Shown here piece by piece: positions 884 through 14,932 of a stretch of 36,469 bases of DNA (position 1 is the first letter of the stretch; the number at the start of each line of letters is the position of its first letter). This DNA is from Gemmatimonadota bacterium (lineage in GTDB: Bacteria; Gemmatimonadota; Gemmatimonadetes; Longimicrobiales; Gaopeijiaceae), in assembly GCA_029262115.1 (NCBI GenBank), contig JAJCZZ010000081.1, forward strand, positions 1 to 36,469, given 5' to 3'. The notes below the pieces were generated by a model. The model was not told the origin of the DNA. It saw only the letters and a list, made by a program, of their open reading frames with translations, and made no database searches. The translations under genes were made by a program, and so were the position numbers.

Positions 884-1465
884 TCAGCCGCGTGGTGGCT
901 CGAGTTCGATGTGCCCCGGTCCCACCGTGTCGGGTGCGCCCGGGTCGGCGACGAGGAACACCAGCGTCTCGAGGCGGTCGACCGCCGCCTCGACCCACTT
1001 CCGCCAGCGGCCGCGGCGGAGCGCATACCTCGACGTGTAGACCCGCACCTCCGTGGCCCCGCCCGCCGACGTCACGGCGAAGCGCAGTCCGCGGCGATCA
1101 CGCCAGGTAATCTCATCGGCCTGGAGCTCGACCTGGGCGGGTCCGTCCCGGTAGGGCTGCACCAACCGTACGAGGCGCAGGAGCTGATCGGACGAGAGAG
1201 GGAGGGGGATCTCGCGGATGACGGAGAGGTTCGTCTTGACGATACCCCACTGCTGCACGGGCGGCCGGCTCACCCCGGTCGGGCTCGCCGAGCGTACTTC
1301 CGCGATGGCGCGGTTCACGGCGCTGCTCCCCAGGCCGGCTTCACCTGCGATGGACCGTAACTCGTCCACCGTGAGGAACCGCCCGTCGTCGCTCCCGTCC
1401 AACTCCGCGGCGCGACGAAGGATCTTGTCGGCGTCGAATTTCGTGAATGTCGGTGACTCGGCCAT
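884..1465 (-). CDS. hypothetical protein with small helical N-terminal domain
   Basis: This is a 193-residue protein. An in-frame ATG 60 bases upstream (1525) would lengthen it, but the recognisable domain begins just after the Met at 1465. Residues ~7-55 (a KILRRAAELDG..LTVDELRSIAGEAGL..SAVNRAIAEV pattern) look like a compact helix-turn-helix-like fold of a kind I recall from Gemmatimonadota and Bacteroidota proteins of unknown role. The remainder has alternating strands and basic patches (RRGRWRKW), with no signal peptide or membrane segment. It is divergent from feoA and shares the intergenic region that holds the Fur-box match, so it may be iron-regulated too. No function is assigned. Confidence 0.6.
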   Translation of the reverse strand: MAESPTFTKFDADKILRRAAELDGSDDGRFLTVDELRSIAGEAGLGSSAVNRAIAEVRSASPTGVSRPPVQQWGIVKTNLSVIREIPLPLSSDQLLRLVRLVQPYRDGPAQVELQADEITWRDRRGLRFAVTSAGGATEVRVYTSRYALRRGRWRKWVEAAVDRLETLVFLVADPGAPDTVGPGHIELEPPRG

Positions 1466-1552
1466 GGGAAGAACCTGATATCCAGAGTCGCCGTAGGCAA
1501 CGGATGCGCGACCGTATCTCGACATGCCGTGCCTGCTTGCGTAACTTCTGGT

Positions 1553-4707: not shown

Positions 4708-6455
4708 ATCCGCGCCTGCACCGTGTACAGCTGGTGGTACCGACCTTTCATCGCCATCAACTGCTCGTGTTGACCGCGCTCCACAATGGCGCCGGCCTCC
4801 ACCACGAGAATCAGATCCGCACGCTGGATCGTGGACAGACGGTGCGCGATGACGAAGGTAGTCCGTCCTTTGAACAGGTCCTGAAGACTGTCCTGGATCA
4901 GAGCTTCGCTTTCGGTGTCCAGGCTCGATGTCGCCTCGTCCAGAAGCAGGATCCGCGGGTTCGCCAGAATGGCCCGGGCGATGGTCACGCGTTGGCGCTG
5001 TCCACCCGACAGCTTCACCCCGCGCTCCCCGATGATGGTGTCGAGCCCCTCCGGAAACCGGTCGGTGAACTCCAGGACGTGGGCGCTCTTGGCCGCGGCG
5101 TGTATGTCGTCGTCGGTGGCGTCGCCCCGTGCGAACAACAGGTTCTCCCGGATCGTTCCGTCGAACAGGAAGTCGTTCTGGAGAACCAGGCCGAGTTGAT
5201 CGCGGTAGCTCGACAGTCGAACCGTCCGGAGGTCCACCCCGTCTACGGTGACCGTTCCGGCATCCGGCGTCAGGAAGGTCGCGGCGAGCCCGGCGAGCGT
5301 GCTCTTCCCGGAGCCCGAACTCCCGACGAGGGCGATGACCGTTCCCGGCGCGGCCTCGAACGAGACGCCCTGGAGGACCGGCTTGTCCTCCTCGTAGCGG
5401 AAATGGACGTCATCGAAGATCACATGGCCGTCGACCGGCGGCATCTCGACCGTGCGCAGCGGGTCATCGTCCTCCCGAGGCCACGAGAGCAGTTCGCTCG
5501 TCCGGTCGAGGCCCGCGAACGCTTCGGTCATCTGAGTCCCGATGTTGGCCATCTGCACGATCGGCGCGATCAGGAATCCGAGAAAGAGCGTGAAGCTGAA
5601 CAGCTCGCCCAGCGTCATCTGGCCCTCGACGATGAGGCGCCCGCCGTACCCCATGATCAGGACACTGGCGGAGCCCATGAACAGCGCACCGAGGCTGGTA
5701 ACGCCGCTCGATGTCGTGAGCGTGGTCTTCACGTTGTCGAAGATGCGCATCACCCCCGCCTCGAAGATCTCTCCCTCCTTCTCGAGTGCGTGAAAGCCTT
5801 TGATGATGCGGATGCCGCCGAGCGTCTCGGTCAGTCGGCCGGTGACTTCAGCCCGGATCCGGCCCCGCTCACGAAACGCGGGGCGGAGCTTCTTGAACGC
5901 CCGCGTCGAAACGAAGCTGAACGCCGCCAAGGGGACGATCGCGAGCAGCGTCATGACGACGTCGATGCGGACCAGGAAGACGAAGGCGACCAGCGCCGTC
6001 ACGGTGCCCCCGACCAACTGCACGAGTCCCGTGCCGATGAGGTTCCGTACGCCCTCCACGTCGTCCATGATGCGCGACACGAGTTCGCCGCTCTTCGCGT
6101 TGTCGAACACGCGCACCGGCAGACCCAGCACGTGCCGCTGTGCCTGTGCCCGTAACTGGGCGATCAGGTTCTGCGCCTCGACGCTGAGCAACATGGTCAG
6201 GGAGTACGAGGTCGCTGATTGGATTACCACGGCCAGCCCCACGGCGCTCAGCAACTTGTAGAGCAGGGGGATGTCGCCGTTGGCGATCACGTTGTCGACG
6301 AGGTACTTGGTCGACGCGGGGAGCACGAGCCCGCTGAGCCGGTTGAGCAGGATGAGAACCAGGCCCAACCCGATCAGATTCTTGCGGGGCCAGATGATCT
6401 CCTGGAATGCGTGGCGCAGGCTAGCGCCGGACACGGCGGTCTTCGGTTTCGACAT
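4704..6455 (-). CDS. ABC exporter, fused membrane and ATPase domains (MsbA-like)
   Basis: This is a 583-residue half-transporter that presumably works as a homodimer in the inner membrane, exporting lipid, drug or peptide. The N-terminal exporter transmembrane domain spans residues ~20-310 (segments near 27-45, 65-90, 145-185 and 250-305). The nucleotide-binding domain follows at ~345-580, with Walker A GSSGSGKST (378-386), Q-loop near Q426, signature LSGGQ (482-486), Walker B ILLLDE (502-507) and switch His538. All ATPase residues are intact. The substrate cannot be told from sequence; lipid-flippase and multidrug relatives look alike at this level. The stop codon TAG is made by the CTAG at the end of the MITE-like element. 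No strong Shine-Dalgarno precedes the ATG. The gene has no close operon partner. Confidence 0.92.
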   Translation of the reverse strand: MSKPKTAVSGASLRHAFQEIIWPRKNLIGLGLVLILLNRLSGLVLPASTKYLVDNVIANGDIPLLYKLLSAVGLAVVIQSATSYSLTMLLSVEAQNLIAQLRAQAQRHVLGLPVRVFDNAKSGELVSRIMDDVEGVRNLIGTGLVQLVGGTVTALVAFVFLVRIDVVMTLLAIVPLAAFSFVSTRAFKKLRPAFRERGRIRAEVTGRLTETLGGIRIIKGFHALEKEGEIFEAGVMRIFDNVKTTLTTSSGVTSLGALFMGSASVLIMGYGGRLIVEGQMTLGELFSFTLFLGFLIAPIVQMANIGTQMTEAFAGLDRTSELLSWPREDDDPLRTVEMPPVDGHVIFDDVHFRYEEDKPVLQGVSFEAAPGTVIALVGSSGSGKSTLAGLAATFLTPDAGTVTVDGVDLRTVRLSSYRDQLGLVLQNDFLFDGTIRENLLFARGDATDDDIHAAAKSAHVLEFTDRFPEGLDTIIGERGVKLSGGQRQRVTIARAILANPRILLLDEATSSLDTESEALIQDSLQDLFKGRTTFVIAHRLSTIQRADLILVVEAGAIVERGQHEQLMAMKGRYHQLYTVQARI

Positions 6456-6694: not shown

Positions 6695-8962
6695 TCAGTT
6701 TCCGCCGGCTTCCGCCAACGCGACGATGAGCGCGCGGAGCCTCCTCACGTCGCGGAGGTCGAGAACCTCGCCGGGCGAATGGCTGTACCTCCCCGGCCAG
6801 GAGATGCCCTGGTTGGGCGCGCCCCAGAAGGTGAAACGCGTTCCGTCGGTCCCGCCCTGCGTCAGTCCGGTCTGGAGCGCAATGCCGGCCCGGGCGGCGG
6901 CGGCCCGGACTCGCTCCCTCTCTGCCGGCGGCGATACCGAGGAGTTCTCGATGGCGCGCAGGACCGGCCCAGCCCCCAGGAGAACGTGCGCGAAGTGCGG
7001 GGATTCCAAGGGTGTGTCGGACGAGACGAACGTGTCGATGCTGTAGACGCGCGCGGCCGAGCGTCCATAGCGCCGAGCCAGGGCGCCAGCGCCGAGCAGC
7101 CCGCCCTCCTCGTGAACGGACCAGGTGAAGACGACCTTCGCGGCCAATGCCTCCGGATCGACGTCGTGCAGCGCCATGAGAAGTGCGGTCGTGCCCACCC
7201 GATCGTCCGTCGAGCGGGCGGTCACGCGATGCGGGCCGAGGTACTGAGCTTGCTTGAAGCTGGTGACCGACGCGCCCGGTTGGATCCCCCGGGCCGCCAG
7301 GGCCGAGCCGTCCATTCCGAACCAGGCCCGCAGGGGACCGGGCTCCTTGCCCTCGGCCGCCGCACGCGTCAGGAAGACGCCTCGAAGAGCTGGCGGTGTG
7401 GTCGCACGCAGGGAACCGGCCTTCCATCGTGGGTCGGTGTTTCGACCGTCTCCGGTGGCCGCGGATGGTGCCTCCGCCGGTGCGGGCCGCACGAGCGCCG
7501 TCTGTCCTTCCCACGCGGAGGACACGGCGCCACCCCGCCGATCGAGCGTCACGGTACCGTCCGGCGCGACCGCCGCGACCCGGAAACCCACCTCGTCCAT
7601 GTGAGCGATGAAGACCGTGGTGTCTCGCTCGGGTCCCGCCTCAACCATGACGTTGCCCATGTCGTCCACCACGGCTCGGTCGAGGGCCCACGCCGGCATG
7701 TGTTCGAGCACGTAGCGACGCACTGCCCACTCGTGGTCGGGAATGCCGTGGGTATCCAGGAGTTCAAGGAGATGGCGGGTGAGCGGGTCGGGGTCGGATC
7801 GCTCGGCGAACGGCCTGGGGGTTGGGGCGGTCGGCCACCGGAGAGGCGCATCTGGACGCAGTCCCGCCCCCGCAGCGACCGCCCCCCGGAGCCAGGCGGC
7901 CTCGTCGAGCGCGATCACTTCGATCATGGCGCCGGGCCGGCGGACGTTCGGAGCAATCCATCGGACGGTCTCGACTCCGGCCGCCGCGATCACCTCGCCC
8001 ACGCGTCCGAGGTCGGGGGCCGGGCGGACCCGGTCCTCCCGTTCGCGCTGGCCGGGCGCCACGATCGTCAACTGGTCGACCGGCCCCCCGCGCGTGACCA
8101 GCGCGCCGAGGCCGACCCACCCCATGCCTTCCTGCGCGCTGAGAACGAAACGAGTGCGGCCGGGGACGCCCGCTCGAGCCGCCGCTTCCGCGACTGCCAC
8201 GACTGCCGCGCACCCCGCCCGCCGGCCCATGTTCGAGCCTGCAGCGTGCCCCTCCATCGGCCAGACAGGGAGGTGACGCTGCACGGGGTGGAGCAACTCG
8301 ATGCCCAGGGCCGCGACTTCCGCGGCCGACTCGGCGCCTACGTCGACCCACAGGTCATCGGTGGTCACCACGTCCGTCTCGTCCCGGTGCTGCTGGGCGA
8401 AGTGGCCGTTGGAGCGGGCCACCACTGCGGCCACCGGCCTGCGGTCTGTGAGGACGCGCACCTGCTGCGCCTCGTGGGCCTGATCCCAGAGCGGGTGATC
8501 GGACCCTCGCCCGATGCGGTGCAGCCTCAGGTAGCCGTCAGTCGTGATCTGTGAGACGGCGTACGAGGGGGCGTCCAGCGCGCATGCGACGATCCGGTGG
8601 GGCGAACCCTGGCCGACGGCGCGCACCACGTTTCCCCACCGATCCGCGCTCCAGCCGTTGCCGAGTTGGCGGGCGAGGGCAGGGGAAGTCCGCTGTTCGT
8701 AGCCGGTCGCCGCATCGATCACGGCCCAAGAGGCGAGGGCGACCACAGCGACCTGATCGATCTGCGTATATGATGCTGTATCGGCGTCCCGATCGGCCTG
8801 CGCGTGGATGGCGGCCGCGGCGTCCTGATCGGACTGTGCTTGGCCCGCAGCCGGAGCTCCGAGAAGGAGCGCCGCCAGGATCACCGGCGGGAGCGGTCGG
8901 ACGTGACCAGAGCGACACGGTCGGGGAACCCGCGAGATGGGTGAGGGCATCGTCAATGGCAT
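6695..8962 (-). CDS. secreted M42-family aminopeptidase, duplicated domain
   Basis: This is a 755-residue exported protein with a hydrophobic signal segment at ~26-40. The C-terminal half (~395-755) carries the M42 metallo-aminopeptidase pattern: AHMDEVGF (453-460), DDR (586-588), HEEGG (617-621), SIDT (641-644) and HSPGE (728-732), so metal ligands and catalytic Glu appear intact. The N-terminal half (~95-390) aligns by eye with the same fold (DRWGNVVRAVG, then ACALDAPSYAVSQIT and VLSAQEGMGW). There, His is replaced in HxD, the DDR aspartate is lost and one Glu of the EE pair is changed. This looks like a tandem duplication with a degenerate first copy. The start is the Met at 8962; a second Met lies at 8950, and neither has a good Shine-Dalgarno. 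The enzyme probably trims peptides outside the cytoplasm. Confidence 0.82.
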   Translation of the reverse strand: MPLTMPSPISRVPRPCRSGHVRPLPPVILAALLLGAPAAGQAQSDQDAAAAIHAQADRDADTASYTQIDQVAVVALASWAVIDAATGYEQRTSPALARQLGNGWSADRWGNVVRAVGQGSPHRIVACALDAPSYAVSQITTDGYLRLHRIGRGSDHPLWDQAHEAQQVRVLTDRRPVAAVVARSNGHFAQQHRDETDVVTTDDLWVDVGAESAAEVAALGIELLHPVQRHLPVWPMEGHAAGSNMGRRAGCAAVVAVAEAAARAGVPGRTRFVLSAQEGMGWVGLGALVTRGGPVDQLTIVAPGQREREDRVRPAPDLGRVGEVIAAAGVETVRWIAPNVRRPGAMIEVIALDEAAWLRGAVAAGAGLRPDAPLRWPTAPTPRPFAERSDPDPLTRHLLELLDTHGIPDHEWAVRRYVLEHMPAWALDRAVVDDMGNVMVEAGPERDTTVFIAHMDEVGFRVAAVAPDGTVTLDRRGGAVSSAWEGQTALVRPAPAEAPSAATGDGRNTDPRWKAGSLRATTPPALRGVFLTRAAAEGKEPGPLRAWFGMDGSALAARGIQPGASVTSFKQAQYLGPHRVTARSTDDRVGTTALLMALHDVDPEALAAKVVFTWSVHEEGGLLGAGALARRYGRSAARVYSIDTFVSSDTPLESPHFAHVLLGAGPVLRAIENSSVSPPAERERVRAAAARAGIALQTGLTQGGTDGTRFTFWGAPNQGISWPGRYSHSPGEVLDLRDVRRLRALIVALAEAGGN

Positions 8963-8989
8963 GGGAACGGGTACACGAAGCGGCGGGAC

Positions 8990-9008
8990 GCGCCCTATAG
9001 TAGGGCGC
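8990..9008. promoter_or_regulatory. perfect inverted repeat between divergent genes
   Basis: GCGCCCTA-TAG-TAGGGCGC is a perfect 8-base inverted repeat around a 3-base centre. It is placed 28 bases before the peptidase start and ~100 bases before the divergent BNR-protein gene. It encloses a TATAGT hexamer resembling a -10 box. An operator shared by the two genes is the simplest reading, but no regulator can be named. Confidence 0.5.
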
Positions 9009-9037
9009 TCCACCCTCCACACGCTTCCCTCGGCCCC

Positions 9038-9067
9038 TCGACACGGTCCCGCGCGTCGGGCTACAGT
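9038..9067 (+). promoter_or_regulatory. possible promoter of the BNR-repeat gene
   Basis: TCGACA (9038-9043) and TACAGT (9062-9067) are separated by 18 bases, a fair sigma-70-like pair (5/6 and 4/6 to consensus), 44 bases before the start codon at 9111. Matches of this quality are not rare in GC-rich DNA. Confidence 0.35.
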
Positions 9068-9110
9068 CTGTCCGTATTCGTCCCGAGCGCCGTCGCAACC
9101 GAGGTGAGGA

Positions 9111-12100
9111 ATGAGAAGCTTCCGCTGGTCGATACCCGTGACCCTGATGGTGGGGCTGAGCGCGGTCCCCGCGACCACGATCCACGCGCAGTCCACGGCC
9201 GATCGTGTTCGCATGGCGACCGAGGGCCTGCGCTTCCGAGAGGTCGGGCCCACCATCATGGGCGGGCGTGTGTCCGACCTCGCAGTCGTGGAGTCCGACC
9301 CGCGCATCTTCTACGTGGGCACGGCAACCGGAGGCATCTGGAAGACCGAGAACGCCGGCATTACGTTCACCGCGCTCTTCACGGACGAGGAGACCTCATC
9401 GATCGGGGATGTCACGGTGGCGCCGTCGAACCCGAACGTGATCTGGGTCGGGACGGGGGAGCCTCAAAACCGCCAGAGCTCGCCATGGGGCAACGGCGTG
9501 TACCGCAGCGTGGACGGGGGCACGACCTGGCGGCATCTCGGCCTGTCGGAGACCCACCACATCTCCCGAATTCAGGTGCATCCCCGGGATCCGGACGTCG
9601 CCTACGTTGCGGCCGTGGGCCACCTCTGGGGCCCGAACCCCGAGCGCGGCGTCTATCGGACCCGAGACGGGGGGCGCAGCTGGGACCAGGTGTTGTTCAT
9701 CGACGACGATACCGGGGTGATCGACCTCGTCATGGACCCCAACGATCCGATGGCGCTCTATGCGGCGACATACCAACGCCGTAGACGGGCGTGGGGCTTC
9801 AACGGAGGCGGACCCGGCAGCGGAATCCATCGGACGCTCGACGGCGGCGACAGCTGGACGGAGCTGACCGACGGACTTCCGGAGGGAAACAAGGGCCGGA
9901 TCGGGCTGGACGTCTTCCGAGGCGATGGCCGCTTCGTATGCGCCATCGTCGAGGCGGACGCGCGCGCACCAGGTGCTGGGTTCGGAGACGGCGGACGCGA
10001 GAACGGCGTCTACTGCTCGACGGATCGCGGCAACACGTGGGAAATGCGCAGCGATACGAACAACCGGCCGATGTACTACAGCCAGATTCGGATCGATCCG
10101 AACGACGCGGAGCGGATCTATCTCGGTGGCTCGAACCTGTTCCGATCGTCCGATGGCGGACGGACGTTCACGGACGATGCGGCGGAGGGTGTGCATCTCG
10201 ACCATCACGCGCTCTGGATCGACCCCAATGACTCCGACCACCTGCTCCTCGGCAGTGACGGTGGGGTCTCCGTGTCGTGGGATCGCTCGGACAGCTGGTA
10301 CCAGTTCCGCAACCTTCCGCTGGCGCAGTTCTACGAGATCGGCGTGGATATGCGCGACCCCTACCACGTCTGCGGTGGACTTCAGGACAACGGTTCGTGG
10401 TGTGCGCCCTCGGACACCCGCTCGAACCAGGGAATTCGCACCCGGGACTGGTACAACGTCGGATCGGGCGACGGCTTCTTCACCGTCATGACGGCCGACA
10501 CCATGGTCATGTTCGCCCAATCGCAGGGGGGCAACCTCACACGGGTGGATCTGAGAACCAACGAGCGCTCCCGCATCCGACCCGAGGGAGTGCTGGACGA
10601 CGAGGGCAATCCGCCCGAGCTCCGGTGGAACTGGGATTCGCCGAGCCTGGTGTCCTCCCACGACCCCAACACCGTGTACATCGGGAGCAACATGCTCTTC
10701 CGCTCCCGTGACCTCGGGCAGAGTTGGGAGGCCGTTTCCGGCGACCTCACCTACGCCGTCGACCGTGAAGAGCTCGAGTTGATGGGAGTAGCGGGCTCGG
10801 AAGCGCAGATGTCGTTGAACGACGGCCAATCGAGCTATGGCAACCTGACCGCCATTGCCGAGTCCCCGCTCGACCCCGGTGTGCTCTACGCCGGCGCCGA
10901 CGATGGACGGTTGCATGTCACGAGGGACGGCGGTGCCAGTTGGACCGATATCACGGGGAACGTGCCCGGCCTCCCCGACAACACGTATGTAACGCGCATC
11001 GTGGCGTCCAACGGCACACAGGGTCACGTATACGCCGCCTTCGACGGACACCGCAGCGACGACTTCTCGGCGTACGTCTACGAGAGCCGGGACTACGGGC
11101 GGAGTTGGCGCCCGATTGTGGCGGGGCTTCCGGAGTCGTCGATCAACGCCCTGGAACAGCATCCTCGTCGGGCTGACCTCCTCTTCGTCGGCAACGAGAT
11201 CGGCGTCTACGTGAGCATCGACGGCGGAGCCCAGTGGGTGCGTATGGACGGGGGGCTACCTACCGTGCCGGTCGACGATATCGTGATCCATCCCCGGGAG
11301 AATGATCTGGTGCTCGGAACGCATGGCCGCGGCATCTGGATCATGGACGACATCGGGCCGCTGGAGGCGCTGACCCCCTCGACGTTGACGGCGGATGCGC
11401 ACCTGTTCGATGTCCGCCGCGCCACATCGTACAACCTCTACACTCCCCAGGGATGGACTCCGGGCATCTGGGAGGCCGAGAACCCCGGGTATGGCGCGCG
11501 TATCCGCTACTGGCTCGGGTCAGCGGTCGACACGGTGACGCTGACGGTCACGGATCCGTCGGGCACGACCGTGCGCGCGTTGGGCGGTTCGGGGGCCGTG
11601 GGCCTCCACGAAGTGGTGTGGGACCTTCGGCTGGTCGAGGAGAATGGAGACAGCGAGGATCCCGAGGACGAGCCGACTCCGGGGCCGCGGGTCCTGCCTG
11701 GCCGCTACAGCGTGCAGATGGAGGCCGGGGAGCGCACGGATCAGACGGACATCGAGGTCCGCCTCGATCCGAGGGTTGGGATCGACTCGGCCGTCCTGGC
11801 CGAGCGACAGGCTCAGATCATGGACTCCTACCGGCTCGGGCGTTCGGTCAATGCGGCAGGGAACGCCCTCGACCGCATCCAGGAACGACTGGAGGAGGTC
11901 CGGGACCTCCTGAACGACACGGAGTCGGACGCAGCGCTTCGGGAGCGGACCGACGAGCTGATGGCGCGGGCCGATTCGCTCGAGGAGGCTTTGGACGACG
12001 TATCGGATGGGGCGGGGGTGTGGGGTCGGATTCAAGGGGTGTCCGGACCCGCCACGGCGGATCAGCGCCGGTCCATCGAACGGTCATGGCGGACGGTGCC

Positions 12101-12230
12101 GCCCCTGATCGAGTCGATCAACGGGATGATCACCCAGGACATGGTGGACCTGAACCGGCGACTCGACGAAGCCGGCGTCCGTCGTGACCCGGGGCCGCCG
12201 GTCCCCCTACCGCGGCGGGTAGGGCGCTGA
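9111..12230 (+). CDS. secreted BNR/sortilin-like beta-propeller protein
   Basis: This is a 1039-residue exported protein with a signal peptide (residues 1-26, likely cut after IHA). Its large propeller region is marked by Asp-box repeats of the S/T-x-D-G-G-x-T-W type at 133-140, 184-191, 242-249, 303-310 (STDRGNTW) and 346-353, with more near 500-750. The arrangement is that of the VPS10/sortilin or 'glycosyl hydrolase BNR repeat' proteins abundant in Gemmatimonadota and Bacteroidota. After ~750 come beta-rich segments, then a Glu/Arg-rich, probably helical region (~900-1000). The fold is clear, but no enzymatic function can be claimed; ligand binding or a secreted hydrolase are both possible. 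GAGGTGA (9101-9107) is the Shine-Dalgarno. It is divergent from the M42 peptidase. Confidence 0.88.
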   Translation: MRSFRWSIPVTLMVGLSAVPATTIHAQSTADRVRMATEGLRFREVGPTIMGGRVSDLAVVESDPRIFYVGTATGGIWKTENAGITFTALFTDEETSSIGDVTVAPSNPNVIWVGTGEPQNRQSSPWGNGVYRSVDGGTTWRHLGLSETHHISRIQVHPRDPDVAYVAAVGHLWGPNPERGVYRTRDGGRSWDQVLFIDDDTGVIDLVMDPNDPMALYAATYQRRRRAWGFNGGGPGSGIHRTLDGGDSWTELTDGLPEGNKGRIGLDVFRGDGRFVCAIVEADARAPGAGFGDGGRENGVYCSTDRGNTWEMRSDTNNRPMYYSQIRIDPNDAERIYLGGSNLFRSSDGGRTFTDDAAEGVHLDHHALWIDPNDSDHLLLGSDGGVSVSWDRSDSWYQFRNLPLAQFYEIGVDMRDPYHVCGGLQDNGSWCAPSDTRSNQGIRTRDWYNVGSGDGFFTVMTADTMVMFAQSQGGNLTRVDLRTNERSRIRPEGVLDDEGNPPELRWNWDSPSLVSSHDPNTVYIGSNMLFRSRDLGQSWEAVSGDLTYAVDREELELMGVAGSEAQMSLNDGQSSYGNLTAIAESPLDPGVLYAGADDGRLHVTRDGGASWTDITGNVPGLPDNTYVTRIVASNGTQGHVYAAFDGHRSDDFSAYVYESRDYGRSWRPIVAGLPESSINALEQHPRRADLLFVGNEIGVYVSIDGGAQWVRMDGGLPTVPVDDIVIHPRENDLVLGTHGRGIWIMDDIGPLEALTPSTLTADAHLFDVRRATSYNLYTPQGWTPGIWEAENPGYGARIRYWLGSAVDTVTLTVTDPSGTTVRALGGSGAVGLHEVVWDLRLVEENGDSEDPEDEPTPGPRVLPGRYSVQMEAGERTDQTDIEVRLDPRVGIDSAVLAERQAQIMDSYRLGRSVNAAGNALDRIQERLEEVRDLLNDTESDAALRERTDELMARADSLEEALDDVSDGAGVWGRIQGVSGPATADQRRSIERSWRTVPPLIESINGMITQDMVDLNRRLDEAGVRRDPGPPVPLPRRVGR

Positions 12231-12487
12231 GGCGGGGGCTTCGTGGGGTTCGATGCGGGGGGTGGCCGTCCGGCGTACCTCTCGCGCGTGGGACCCGTCG
12301 TCTCGTTTGCGGGCGGCGCCCCGCTTCGAATCCAGGGCCGTGTCCGAGCCGGTTGCGGTGGGGCGGAGGTTAGCGTGATGTCGCGAATAGCACGTCCCCT
12401 CGGTACTCAGTTGGAACCCTTTGCGTGGCAAGTGGTTACAAAGAAGGGCCTAAATCGACCCCTCGAAGCCTCACGGAAGGAGATCGC

Positions 12488-12748
12488 TTGAGTTCCACCG
12501 CGACCCGCAGCGCCGACATCCGTCTCATCCAGGACCAGTCGACCTGGCTGCAGAAAGCCCTGTTCGCCCTTCAGAAAGCCGATGTGGCCCACGGCAAACT
12601 GGCCGACTCGCGTGGCGAGGACCGCGGACCGTACGTCCTCAAAACCGACGACACCGAGATCTCCATGGAAGCCATCGAAGGCGCGCTGGAGGAACGTATC
12701 CAGGAACTCTTGACGACCACGCGCGAGGCTCGTAAGGCCGTCCGGTAG
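12488..12748 (+). CDS. small hypothetical protein, TTG start
   Basis: This is an 86-residue cytosolic protein. The TTG at 12488 is chosen because GGAAGGAGA (12475-12483) sits just upstream; the frame is open further back to 12425 but without a ribosome-binding site. The sequence is mostly helical and charged (SADIRLIQDQSTWLQKALFALQ region; later an ISMEAIEGALEERIQELL helix and a basic tail). No signal peptide, membrane segment or metal site is present. I do not recognise the family. It precedes the thrS leader by ~80 bases on the same strand and could be read into it. The 257 bases before it (12231-12487) hold no gene. Confidence 0.6.
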   Translation: MSSTATRSADIRLIQDQSTWLQKALFALQKADVAHGKLADSRGEDRGPYVLKTDDTEISMEAIEGALEERIQELLTTTREARKAVR

Positions 12749-12829
12749 GCGCCGACGCGCGGGCTCGAGGTGCGCCGACGCCCGCTCAGGGGGATTGACC
12801 TCTGCGGCGCGCCGGGGCATCCTAAGCTC

Positions 12830-12907
12830 ATGAACGCTTCTTCGACGACCGACACGACCACCCGCACCGGCCGGACTACCGGCCGTGGGGCTGCGCGTTT
12901 CGGTTGA
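12830..12907 (+). CDS. threonine-rich leader peptide of thrS attenuator
   Basis: This is a 25-codon ORF ending in TGA, with Thr at positions 6, 7, 9, 10, 11, 13, 16 and 17: eight Thr codons, all within twelve residues. It lies directly upstream of an intrinsic terminator and the threonyl-tRNA synthetase gene. This is the arrangement of ribosome-mediated attenuators, where scarce charged tRNA-Thr stalls the ribosome in the leader. The Shine-Dalgarno is weak (GGGG at 12814-12817, 12 bases before the ATG), so the translation rate is uncertain. It may be transcribed from its own promoter (TTGACC at 12795-12800 is a possible -35 without a well-spaced -10) or by read-through from the small upstream gene. 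The peptide itself probably has no function. Confidence 0.75.
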   Translation: MNASSTTDTTTRTGRTTGRGAARFG

Positions 12908-12936
12908 TCGAGGTCGACTCCCAACATCGAAGCGCG
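12868..12936 (+). promoter_or_regulatory. candidate antiterminator of the thrS leader
   Basis: CGCGTTTCG (12894-12902) can pair with CGAAGCGCG (12928-12936) as nine contiguous pairs, one of them U-G. The second strand includes the first six bases of the terminator stem, so the two structures exclude each other. A separate 7-pair hairpin CGGCCGG-ACTA-CCGGCCG (12868-12885) lies over the last Thr codons and could be the pause hairpin. A ribosome at the stop codon (12905-12907) would cover 12894-12902 and block the antiterminator; one stalled at Thr codons 6-11 would leave it free. Pairing was worked out by hand, without energies. Confidence 0.6.
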
Positions 12937-12965
12937 GGCCCTGACGAGTAGGGTCCGCGCTTTTT
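12931..12965 (+). terminator. intrinsic terminator (attenuator) upstream of thrS
   Basis: AGCGCGGGCCCT (12931-12942), a 7-base loop and AGGGTCCGCGCT (12950-12961) form a 12-pair stem with one G-U pair, followed by a continuous T-run to 12965. It lies 23 bases after the leader stop codon and 48 before the thrS start, so it stops transcription before the structural gene unless disrupted. Confidence 0.88.
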
Positions 12966-13012: not shown

Positions 13013-14932
13013 ATGTCCAGCGAGCAGATCAAGGTCACACTCCCCGACGGCAAGGTCCTCGAGCTTCCGTGCGGCGCCACGGGATCGGACGTCGCGGCCG
13101 CCATTGGTCCGGGGTTGGCGAAGGCGGCGGTGGCGGTCGAATTGGACGGACAGATCGCGGACCTTATGACGCCGATCGAGCAGGATGTGTCGATCCGCAT
13201 CTTCACGGACCGCGACCCGGAGTCGCTGGACGTGCTGCGACATTCCGCCGCCCACATTCTGGCCACGGCGGTGCGGGAGCTGCGCCCGGAGGCCGCGATC
13301 GGCTTCGGACCGGCCATCGAGGACGGCTTCTACTACGACTTCGAGGTCGACGAACCCTTCACGCCGGAGGATCTGGAGGCGTTCGAGGAGCGGATCAAGG
13401 ACGTCCTCGAGGCCGACCACCCCTTCGAGCGGCGCCGTGTCGACAAGGCGGAGGCGCGGCAGCTGTTCTCCGACGACCCACTGAAGCTCGAACGGTTGGA
13501 GGAGTTCGGGGACGACGAGGTCATCACCGTCTATCGCGATGGTCCCTTCCTCGATCTGTGCCGTGGGCCGCACGTCCCGAGTACGGGTCGGGTGAAGCAT
13601 ATCAAGCTTCTCTCGGCGGCGGGCGCCTACTGGAGAGGCGACGAGAAGCGGCAGATGCTCCAGCGCATCTACGGGACGGCGTTCCACAAGAAGGCCGACC
13701 TCGACGCGCACCTCGAACGGCTGGAAGAGGCCAAGAAGCGCGATCACCGCCGACTGGGCCGCGAGCTGGACCTGTTCAGCACGGATGAGCGGGTCGGGCC
13801 GGGGCTGATCCTGTGGCACCCGCGCGGTGGGCTGCTGCGCATGGAAATCGAGAACTACGAGCGCGAACTGATCCTGCGGCACGGGTACGATCTGGTCTAT
13901 ACGCCGCACATCATGAGCGAACGGCTGTTCGAGATCAGCGGCCATCTCCAGAACTTCGCCGAGGGGATGTTCGGCGCCATGGAGATCGAGGGCGCGCGCT
14001 ACCGGGCCAAGCCCATGAACTGCCCGGGCCACATTGCCGTGTACCAGAGTCACCAGCGGTCGTACCGCGATCTGCCCATCCGCATGGCGGAGTTCGGAAC
14101 GGTCTACCGCTACGAGCGGAGTGGCGTGCTCCACGGTATGCTGCGGGTGCGCGGCTTTACGCAGGACGACGCGCATGTCTTCTGCACGCCGGAGCAGGTG
14201 GCCGACGAAATCGCCCGGCTTCTGGACCTCGTCCACGAGATGCTCGGGACCTTCGGGTATCCCTATACCATCGAACTCGCGACGCGCCCCGAGAAGGCTC
14301 TGGGAGATGCCGAGGAGTGGTCCCGGGCGGAGAAGGTGCTCGCGGACGTGCTCGAAGCGCGCGGCCAGGAATACGAAGTGGATGAGGGCGGCGGAGCGTT
14401 CTACGGTCCGAAACTCGACTTCAAGCTGATCGACGCGATCGGGCGGAAGTGGCAGGGGCCGACGGTCCAGCTCGACTTCAACCTTCCGGAGCGCTTCGAG
14501 TTGGAGTACGTCGGCGAGGACAACGCGCCGCACCGACCGGTCATGCTGCACCGTGTGCTCGTCGGCTCGATGGAGCGCTTCGTCGGTGGGCTGATCGAGC
14601 ACTACGCTGGCGCGTTCCCGCTGTGGATGGCGCCCGAACAGGTGCGGATCCTCCCGATTTCGGAGCACTGGGTGGACAGCGCGGCCGAACTCGTGGCCGA
14701 CCTGGGCAAGGCCGGCATACGCGCACGGATGGAAGCCCGCGAAACGCTCGGGTACCGTATCCGTGAGGCCGAGACGATGAAGATCCCGTACATGGGGGTG
14801 GTGGGCGAGCGGGAGGCCGAGGGCGGGACCGTGGCGGTGCGGACGCGCGGGGCCGGGAAGAAGCAGGAGGTCATGGACCGGGTGGACTTCATTGCGAAAG
14901 TGGTCGAGGAAAAGGAGTCACGGGCAGTGTAA
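13013..14932 (+). CDS. thrS: threonyl-tRNA synthetase
   Basis: This 639-residue class II synthetase charges tRNA-Thr in the cytosol. It is full length (E. coli 642). Domains in order are TGS (~1-62, VTLPDGKVLEL), the editing domain with its zinc-site pattern (HSAAHILA and the later CRGPH), the catalytic core with NCPGH (zinc Cys), motif 2 (MLRVRGFTQDDAH) and motif 3 (VLVGSMERF), and the anticodon-binding domain (~540-639). The Met at 13013 is chosen because the TGS domain begins right after it; there is no clear Shine-Dalgarno. An upstream TTG at 12968 would start three bases after the terminator and is unlikely. Expression is probably governed by the Thr leader and terminator just upstream. 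Confidence 0.96.
   Translation: MSSEQIKVTLPDGKVLELPCGATGSDVAAAIGPGLAKAAVAVELDGQIADLMTPIEQDVSIRIFTDRDPESLDVLRHSAAHILATAVRELRPEAAIGFGPAIEDGFYYDFEVDEPFTPEDLEAFEERIKDVLEADHPFERRRVDKAEARQLFSDDPLKLERLEEFGDDEVITVYRDGPFLDLCRGPHVPSTGRVKHIKLLSAAGAYWRGDEKRQMLQRIYGTAFHKKADLDAHLERLEEAKKRDHRRLGRELDLFSTDERVGPGLILWHPRGGLLRMEIENYERELILRHGYDLVYTPHIMSERLFEISGHLQNFAEGMFGAMEIEGARYRAKPMNCPGHIAVYQSHQRSYRDLPIRMAEFGTVYRYERSGVLHGMLRVRGFTQDDAHVFCTPEQVADEIARLLDLVHEMLGTFGYPYTIELATRPEKALGDAEEWSRAEKVLADVLEARGQEYEVDEGGGAFYGPKLDFKLIDAIGRKWQGPTVQLDFNLPERFELEYVGEDNAPHRPVMLHRVLVGSMERFVGGLIEHYAGAFPLWMAPEQVRILPISEHWVDSAAELVADLGKAGIRARMEARETLGYRIREAETMKIPYMGVVGEREAEGGTVAVRTRGAGKKQEVMDRVDFIAKVVEEKESRAV

Follow-up and report, generated by a model that had tools for sequence, protein, structure and literature searches.

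Transcription of the threonyl-tRNA synthetase gene (thrS) of a Gemmatimonadota bacterium is very probably controlled by a ribosome-mediated attenuator that senses charged tRNA-Thr, as judged from comparative sequence analysis and folding models. The DNA analysed here, referred to as the window, is a stretch of 36,469 nucleotides comprising contig 81 of a Gemmatimonadota MAG (5.45 Mb, 96% complete, 110 contigs; labelled G000). The initial annotation had proposed a threonine attenuator ahead of thrS, and this overall reading is supported by related genomes, covariation, pairing tests and promoter position. The elements of the window, all on the forward strand, are as follows.

12795–12823, forward strand: predicted promoter, TTGACC-N17-CATCCT (−35/−10), identified from the motif in relatives, with +1 at ∼12830, the leader start codon
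12830–12907, forward strand: leader peptide ORF of 25 codons, ATG at 12830 and stop codon TGA at 12905–12907, from translation
12840–12913, forward strand: predicted extended leader hairpin (segments 1:2), sequestering the antiterminator strand in ribosome-free RNA, from the minimum free energy fold and masked folding
12868–12885, forward strand: leader hairpin core of 7 pairs, with an ACTA loop made of bases from Thr codons 16–17, from covariation
12888–12902, forward strand: first strand of the antiterminator (segment 2), within the last leader codons, pairing with 12928–12941
12928–12941, forward strand: segment 3, common to the antiterminator and the 5′ arm of the terminator, from folding and pairing
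12929–12965, forward strand: intrinsic terminator with a 12-pair G-C-rich stem, a 5-nt loop and a T-run at 12961–12965; fold −27.0 kcal/mol
13013–14932, forward strand: thrS, threonyl-tRNA synthetase, the putative regulated gene (NCBIfam TIGR00418, E=7e-206)

The thrS product contains the Pfam domains TGS, tRNA_SAD, tRNA-synt_2b and HGTP_anticodon. Further 5′ in the window, a large Sortilin/BNR-repeat protein and an M42 aminopeptidase are encoded at 9111–12230 (forward strand) and 6695–9307 (reverse strand).

The leader translates as MNASSTTDTTTRTGRTTGRGAARFG, with Thr codons at positions 6, 7, 9, 10, 11, 13, 16 and 17, that is, at 8 of the 12 positions from 6 to 17, exactly as first described. 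This density is unique to the leader among the 375 small ORFs of the window, where the runner-up has 6, and in 2.2 Mb of first-order Markov sequence, with 18,421 small ORFs, it did not occur once. A leader rich in codons for the amino acid of the downstream gene, as in classical attenuators, is thus present (8 Thr in 12 codons), and it is found in 24 genomes.

An energy-model fold of the 136 nt from 12830 to 12965, called for beforehand, yielded −73 kcal/mol (z −6.0). The 12-pair terminator with its T-run, annotated between leader and thrS, was recovered at ∼−27 kcal/mol; its G-C-rich stem joins 12932–12943 to 12949–12960 and reaches 15 pairs with the A-U foot. An intrinsic terminator thus lies between leader and gene, and relatives have it at the same site with covarying pairs. 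A simple consensus scanner listed neither a promoter nor a terminator in the leader and terminator region, in the latter case probably because some of the T-run is paired within the stem; this blank carries less weight than the fold and the comparison with relatives. The antiterminator had been described as a 9-pair helix (12894–12902 with 12928–12936) sharing a strand with the terminator. This helix exists and does share the strand, but it is longer than thought: beyond one bulged G it continues as 12888–12892/12937–12941, giving 14 pairs in total. Its first strand stops two bases short of the leader stop codon, as noted originally. A second amendment to the earlier reading is that a covarying leader hairpin (12868–12885), enlarged into a longer fold, hides the antiterminator strand in the folding model when no ribosome is present.

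The effect of ribosome position was assessed by masked folding, in which the ribosome footprint was removed from RNA extending to 12948, i.e. before the 3′ arm of the terminator is made. With the ribosome stalled at Thr codons 6–16 the antiterminator probability was 0.95–0.99, and it was at most 0.01 when the ribosome was absent or placed at Thr 17, codon 23 or the stop codon. The proposal that a ribosome at the leader end masks the first strand, and that one stalled at Thr does not, is borne out by these models. By folding and pairing, the antiterminator and terminator are mutually exclusive, and the first strand of the former is masked by a ribosome at the stop codon and left free by one at the regulatory codons, as in classical attenuators. 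In the completed RNA at equilibrium the terminator beats the antiterminator in almost all cases. The switch must therefore be kinetic, which is usual for attenuation.

The starvation response, the coupling of ribosome to polymerase and the termination step would proceed as follows. RNA polymerase would start at ∼12830, and a ribosome would translate the Thr-rich leader. When Thr-tRNA is plentiful, the ribosome would reach the stop codon and cover segment 2 (12888–12902), blocking the antiterminator, and the terminator at 12929–12965 would then halt transcription ahead of thrS. When charged Thr-tRNA is scarce, owing to a shortage of either Thr or ThrRS, the ribosome would stall at codons 6–16 and open the long leader fold, leaving segment 2 free to pair with segment 3 (12928–12941) before polymerase completes the terminator, and thrS would be transcribed. 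Were the leader left untranslated, the long leader fold would hold segment 2 and the terminator would form.

The leader ORF might instead act mainly on thrS translation or mRNA stability, as a uORF or ThrRS-binding operator, and not on termination. E. coli ThrRS represses translation of its own mRNA, and a leader might in principle alter access to a site, but here 105 nt separate the leader stop from the thrS start, with the terminator and T-run in between, and the conserved alternative pairing involves a terminator arm and not the thrS start region. The spacing of ∼280–380 nt, with an intervening small ORF, between terminator and thrS at two related loci (L105 and L116) points the same way, and we consider this explanation quite improbable. 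Control at the level of transcription termination is the reading retained below.

We scanned 217 distinct thrS upstream regions from sampled genomes of the order and phylum, with thrS placed by tblastn. A Thr-rich leader followed by a terminator-like hairpin precedes thrS in 24 genomes belonging to 14 genera and three families of a single order:

Family f1: G000, G029, G252, G006, G201, G268, G270, G271, G272, G273, G274, G014, G246, G020, G159, G260, G263 (=SZUA-318, L039), G255
Family f2: G041, G045
Family f3: G052, G044, G058, G038

Examples of the leaders in relatives are MFGNTTTTTTTTGQTTGRGVALVG, MCAGETTTTTTTTGRTTGLGAARVG, MSALITTTTTTTTGRTTGLGAACVD, MIRAFEDTTTTTTTTRTIGPGAGRPV, MLGSTTTTTTTRLLPGGVG, MALTQMTTRTTTTRADRRGAAR and MPHRVPATTTTTTTGRLPQGDVG. 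Some are less pronounced: the leaders of G255 and G271 show weak Thr enrichment, and that of L059 contains only 4 Thr among 10 codons. The leader stop codon lies 14–31 nt from the terminator, mostly 19–25. No such leader and terminator was found in the sampled thrS upstream regions of other families of the class. Alignment of relatives had been suggested as a check, and it yielded Thr-rich ORFs, a covarying terminator and a matching antiterminator; covariation within the inner antiterminator was not significant. Loss of the Thr enrichment or terminator in relatives had been named as evidence against an attenuator. The 24 genomes keep both, together with the antiterminator, but the attenuator is missing from L118 and L217, which are close relatives judged by ThrRS identity (81–82% and 79%, respectively), and the distribution is patchy. 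A sub-lineage (L263, L264 and also L062) still has the promoter and the remnant of a terminator ahead of thrS but has lost the Thr-rich ORF; by sequence, it carries what looks like a decayed attenuator. Together with relatives having the promoter only (L013, L014 and L015), the decayed L263 and L264 loci suggest that the module was gained or lost between thrS and a promoter that stayed in place. Thr-rich ORFs at L213 and L214 were excluded because they look like the C-terminal end of a longer gene lying upstream, as were ORFs with at least 5 Thr at L054, L056, L133 and L176, where the plan is absent or the ORF ends at the thrS start. Separately, a small ORF whose product resembles a single-pass membrane protein (such as LWPWVVLALLLAAGITLFFVYVP) lies directly 5′ of thrS in several Gemmatimonadota; at L105 and L116 it sits between terminator and thrS, and at L148, L165, L173, L191 and L195 just before thrS.

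A covariance model, R1, was built from 12 sequences spanning the leader hairpin to the T-run (the second half of the leader) and used to search 154 genomes of the order. The best 17 matches (E≤2.7e-10) all lie upstream of thrS, by placement and tblastn; 12 of these 17 are sequences from which R1 was built, and the new ones are in G159, G201, G020, G029 and G269. In 246 genomes from the class, no match beyond the order reached 1e-5. Because R1 begins no earlier than the last Thr codons and excludes most of the Thr run, the model and the Thr enrichment are largely independent evidence. Lower-scoring matches at L278, L279, L303, L308 and L309 have a terminator-like hairpin only, with no amino-acid leader, and were taken as chance matches or plain terminators.

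In alignment A1, 92% of the cells of the leader hairpin and terminator are paired, compared with 42–49% in slid versions. Seven pairs change on both sides (3.5 in shuffles; 2 of 500 as high), 17 cells are changed on both sides (5.0 in shuffles; 0 of 500) and the covariation score is 0.291 (0.133 in shuffles; 0 of 500), shuffle figures that are optimistic because of the relatedness of the sequences. In the leader hairpin core (12868–12885), 4 of the 7 pairs change on both sides over 12 sequences, with 93% of cells paired. The inner antiterminator hardly varies and is 86% paired (42–51% when slid). Cross-species pairing was informative: the 3′ strand of the leader pairs with the terminator region of its own species at a mean of −30.6 kcal/mol and with those of other species at −26.6, a difference matched in 0 of 20,000 permutations (p<5e-5); for the outer antiterminator part alone p=0.006, both values being optimistic for the same reason. 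The register of this outer part differs among species, its strands being CGCGTTTCG/CGAAGCGCG in the window, CTCGTC/GACGAG in L057, GCCGT/ACGGC in L219 and GTCTGG/CCAGAC in L258. For the window's own outer arm, its own copy is not the best partner (rank 10 of 12). On the sequence evidence, the pair counts support the predicted leader hairpin and terminator, and the cross-species pairing supports the predicted antiterminator.

For 20 of the 24 leaders, the 80 nt ahead of the leader contain the motif TTGAC-N18-YANNNT (0.02 in shuffles), and other spacings occur in 0–5 of 24. The motif ends 26–40 nt before the start codon in most members, several of which have a GGAG, AGGA or GAGG site 9–16 nt ahead of the leader start codon. 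In the window the motif ends 6 nt before the ATG, from which a leaderless leader mRNA is predicted, unlike in relatives, whose leaders are preceded by a 5′ UTR, often with a Shine-Dalgarno-like site. A conserved promoter motif is thus predicted 5′ of the leader. Transcripts starting downstream of 12965 had been named as an outcome that would speak against attenuation; looked at as promoter position, the promoter with comparative support is located 5′ of the leader and not after the terminator. These data bear on a simpler explanation, in which the terminator merely ends transcription of the upstream gene (12425–12748), thrS is transcribed from a promoter of its own beyond that terminator, and the leader ORF arose by chance. 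This would account for a strong terminator between ORFs on the same strand, as well as for the many relatives whose thrS has no leader; in some of these (L013, L014 and L015, without the module) a promoter motif of the kind found 5′ of the leaders lies directly 92–106 nt before thrS. However, the Thr enrichment is absent from the simulated sequence and recurs in 14 genera, the promoter 5′ of the leader is conserved, and the leader hairpin covaries and has a matching antiterminator, leaving this explanation very improbable. An attenuator remains the preferred reading.

Elsewhere, thrS is controlled by the T-box in Firmicutes and by translational autorepression by ThrRS in E. coli; gene and signal are the same or related, but the sensor there is a tRNA-binding RNA or the enzyme, and here the proposed sensor is the translating ribosome. 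Given the Firmicutes case, a T-box or another RNA sensing tRNA or Thr directly could be imagined, the leader ORF being incidental. Neither the window nor ten related loci matched any Rfam family at the gathering score, including T-box and Thr_leader (RF00506), and below threshold there were unrelated sRNA matches only; in addition, the Thr codons are a recurring feature in relatives. Direct sensing by RNA is therefore extremely improbable, and the ribosome remains the likely sensor.

The closest parallel is the enterobacterial thr operon leader (thrL-thrABC), which has a run of Thr codons, 1:2, 2:3 and 3:4 pairings and an intrinsic terminator. The present element shares the short Thr-codon leader, the alternative pairings and the intrinsic terminator, and the TTGNGAG end of E. 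coli ThrL (C-terminal) presumably resembles the TTGRGAA of the thrS leaders. It differs in gene (thrS), phylum and lack of an Rfam match, and in that most thrS copies are without Ile codons. Synthetase genes attenuated through their own amino acid include pheST, trpS and leuS, the latter two predicted in Streptomyces, and no threonine RNA structures were reported in Actinobacteria (PMC1262725). The thrS element resembles E. coli pheM-pheST and Streptomyces trpS/leuS in this respect, but those sense other amino acids in other phyla. His leader peptides precede hisS*/hisZ in bacilli (PMC2965389, which mentions ThrRS solely for E. coli autoregulation), so that leader peptides can replace other sensors at synthetase-family genes outside Proteobacteria; those cases concern histidine and Firmicutes. 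The open full-text literature searched contained nothing joining Gemmatimonadota with leader-peptide attenuation and no thrS leader-peptide attenuator; an earlier prediction is possible in Lopatovskaya et al. 2010, which is cited in PMC4833913 and surveys synthetase attenuation. That survey aside, the literature is consistent with the original suggestion that such control of thrS was undescribed in the phylum. The mechanism is classical, and the target gene and phylum are apparently new as far as the open literature shows.

Weaker R1 matches led to further amino-acid leaders with terminators. In the genome of the window itself (L277), a hexa-His leader, MTISLAHHHHHHAAFAGGAGEVCA, precedes hisG (TIGR00070), and hisG leaders are also present in L297, L302 and L304. 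Aromatic leaders rich in Phe/Tyr/Trp (MDLLRNRAFGFTAYFGYRPRGRGRGRRYVRD in L300, MSYSAAFAYFRFYWATPKTGRGRRHARM in L305), with terminators, precede the gene for DAHP synthase (3-deoxy-7-phosphoheptulonate synthase). A Thr leader, MRHAATRRTTTLTATTRSTGRGRGCMRR, precedes aspartokinase-homoserine dehydrogenase in L307, and Thr or Thr/Ile leaders with terminators precede homoserine-dehydrogenase genes in L314, L317, L321, L322 and L323; the leader sits ∼2 kb 5′ of the homoserine dehydrogenase domain. Positions are as follows.

L277 ∼1476–1613 (G000:C96, ∼4803–4940): predicted hisG attenuator, with a G-C-rich terminator, a long T-run, hisG and a hisD-like ORF
L307 ∼1460–1550 (reverse), and, on the gene strand, L314 344–434, L322 248–380, L321 305–413, L323 255–363 and L317 444–528: leaders at aspartokinase-homoserine dehydrogenase genes

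Homoserine dehydrogenase (PF00742) was not found in the whole genome of G000; it is present in 14 of 14 control genomes and in a genus-mate, and the gap reflects either auxotrophy or the assembly. A tie between the attenuator and loss of threonine synthesis was rejected, as the enzyme is present in 5 of 9 leader-bearing genomes (first sample) versus about half of all.

With His, Thr and aromatic leaders on matching genes, classical attenuation looks general in the order. We see an even chance that it is a main amino-acid control system of the order, by a shared Thr/His/aromatic plan that hops and is gained and lost, and whose copy in the window is leaderless. On sequence and modelling grounds, the thrS element itself is most likely a real and working Thr-tRNA-sensing attenuator. 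It would be a third mode of thrS control beside the T-box and ThrRS autorepression, and would extend classical leader-peptide attenuation, with comparative support, to Gemmatimonadota. Because the plan recurs on hisG, thrA and DAHP synthase, a ready set is at hand for asking if attenuators were copied between operons or arose anew. Attenuation would imply coupling of transcription and translation in Gemmatimonadota, and the leaders may serve as a readable signature of the amino acids sensed by these largely uncultured bacteria.
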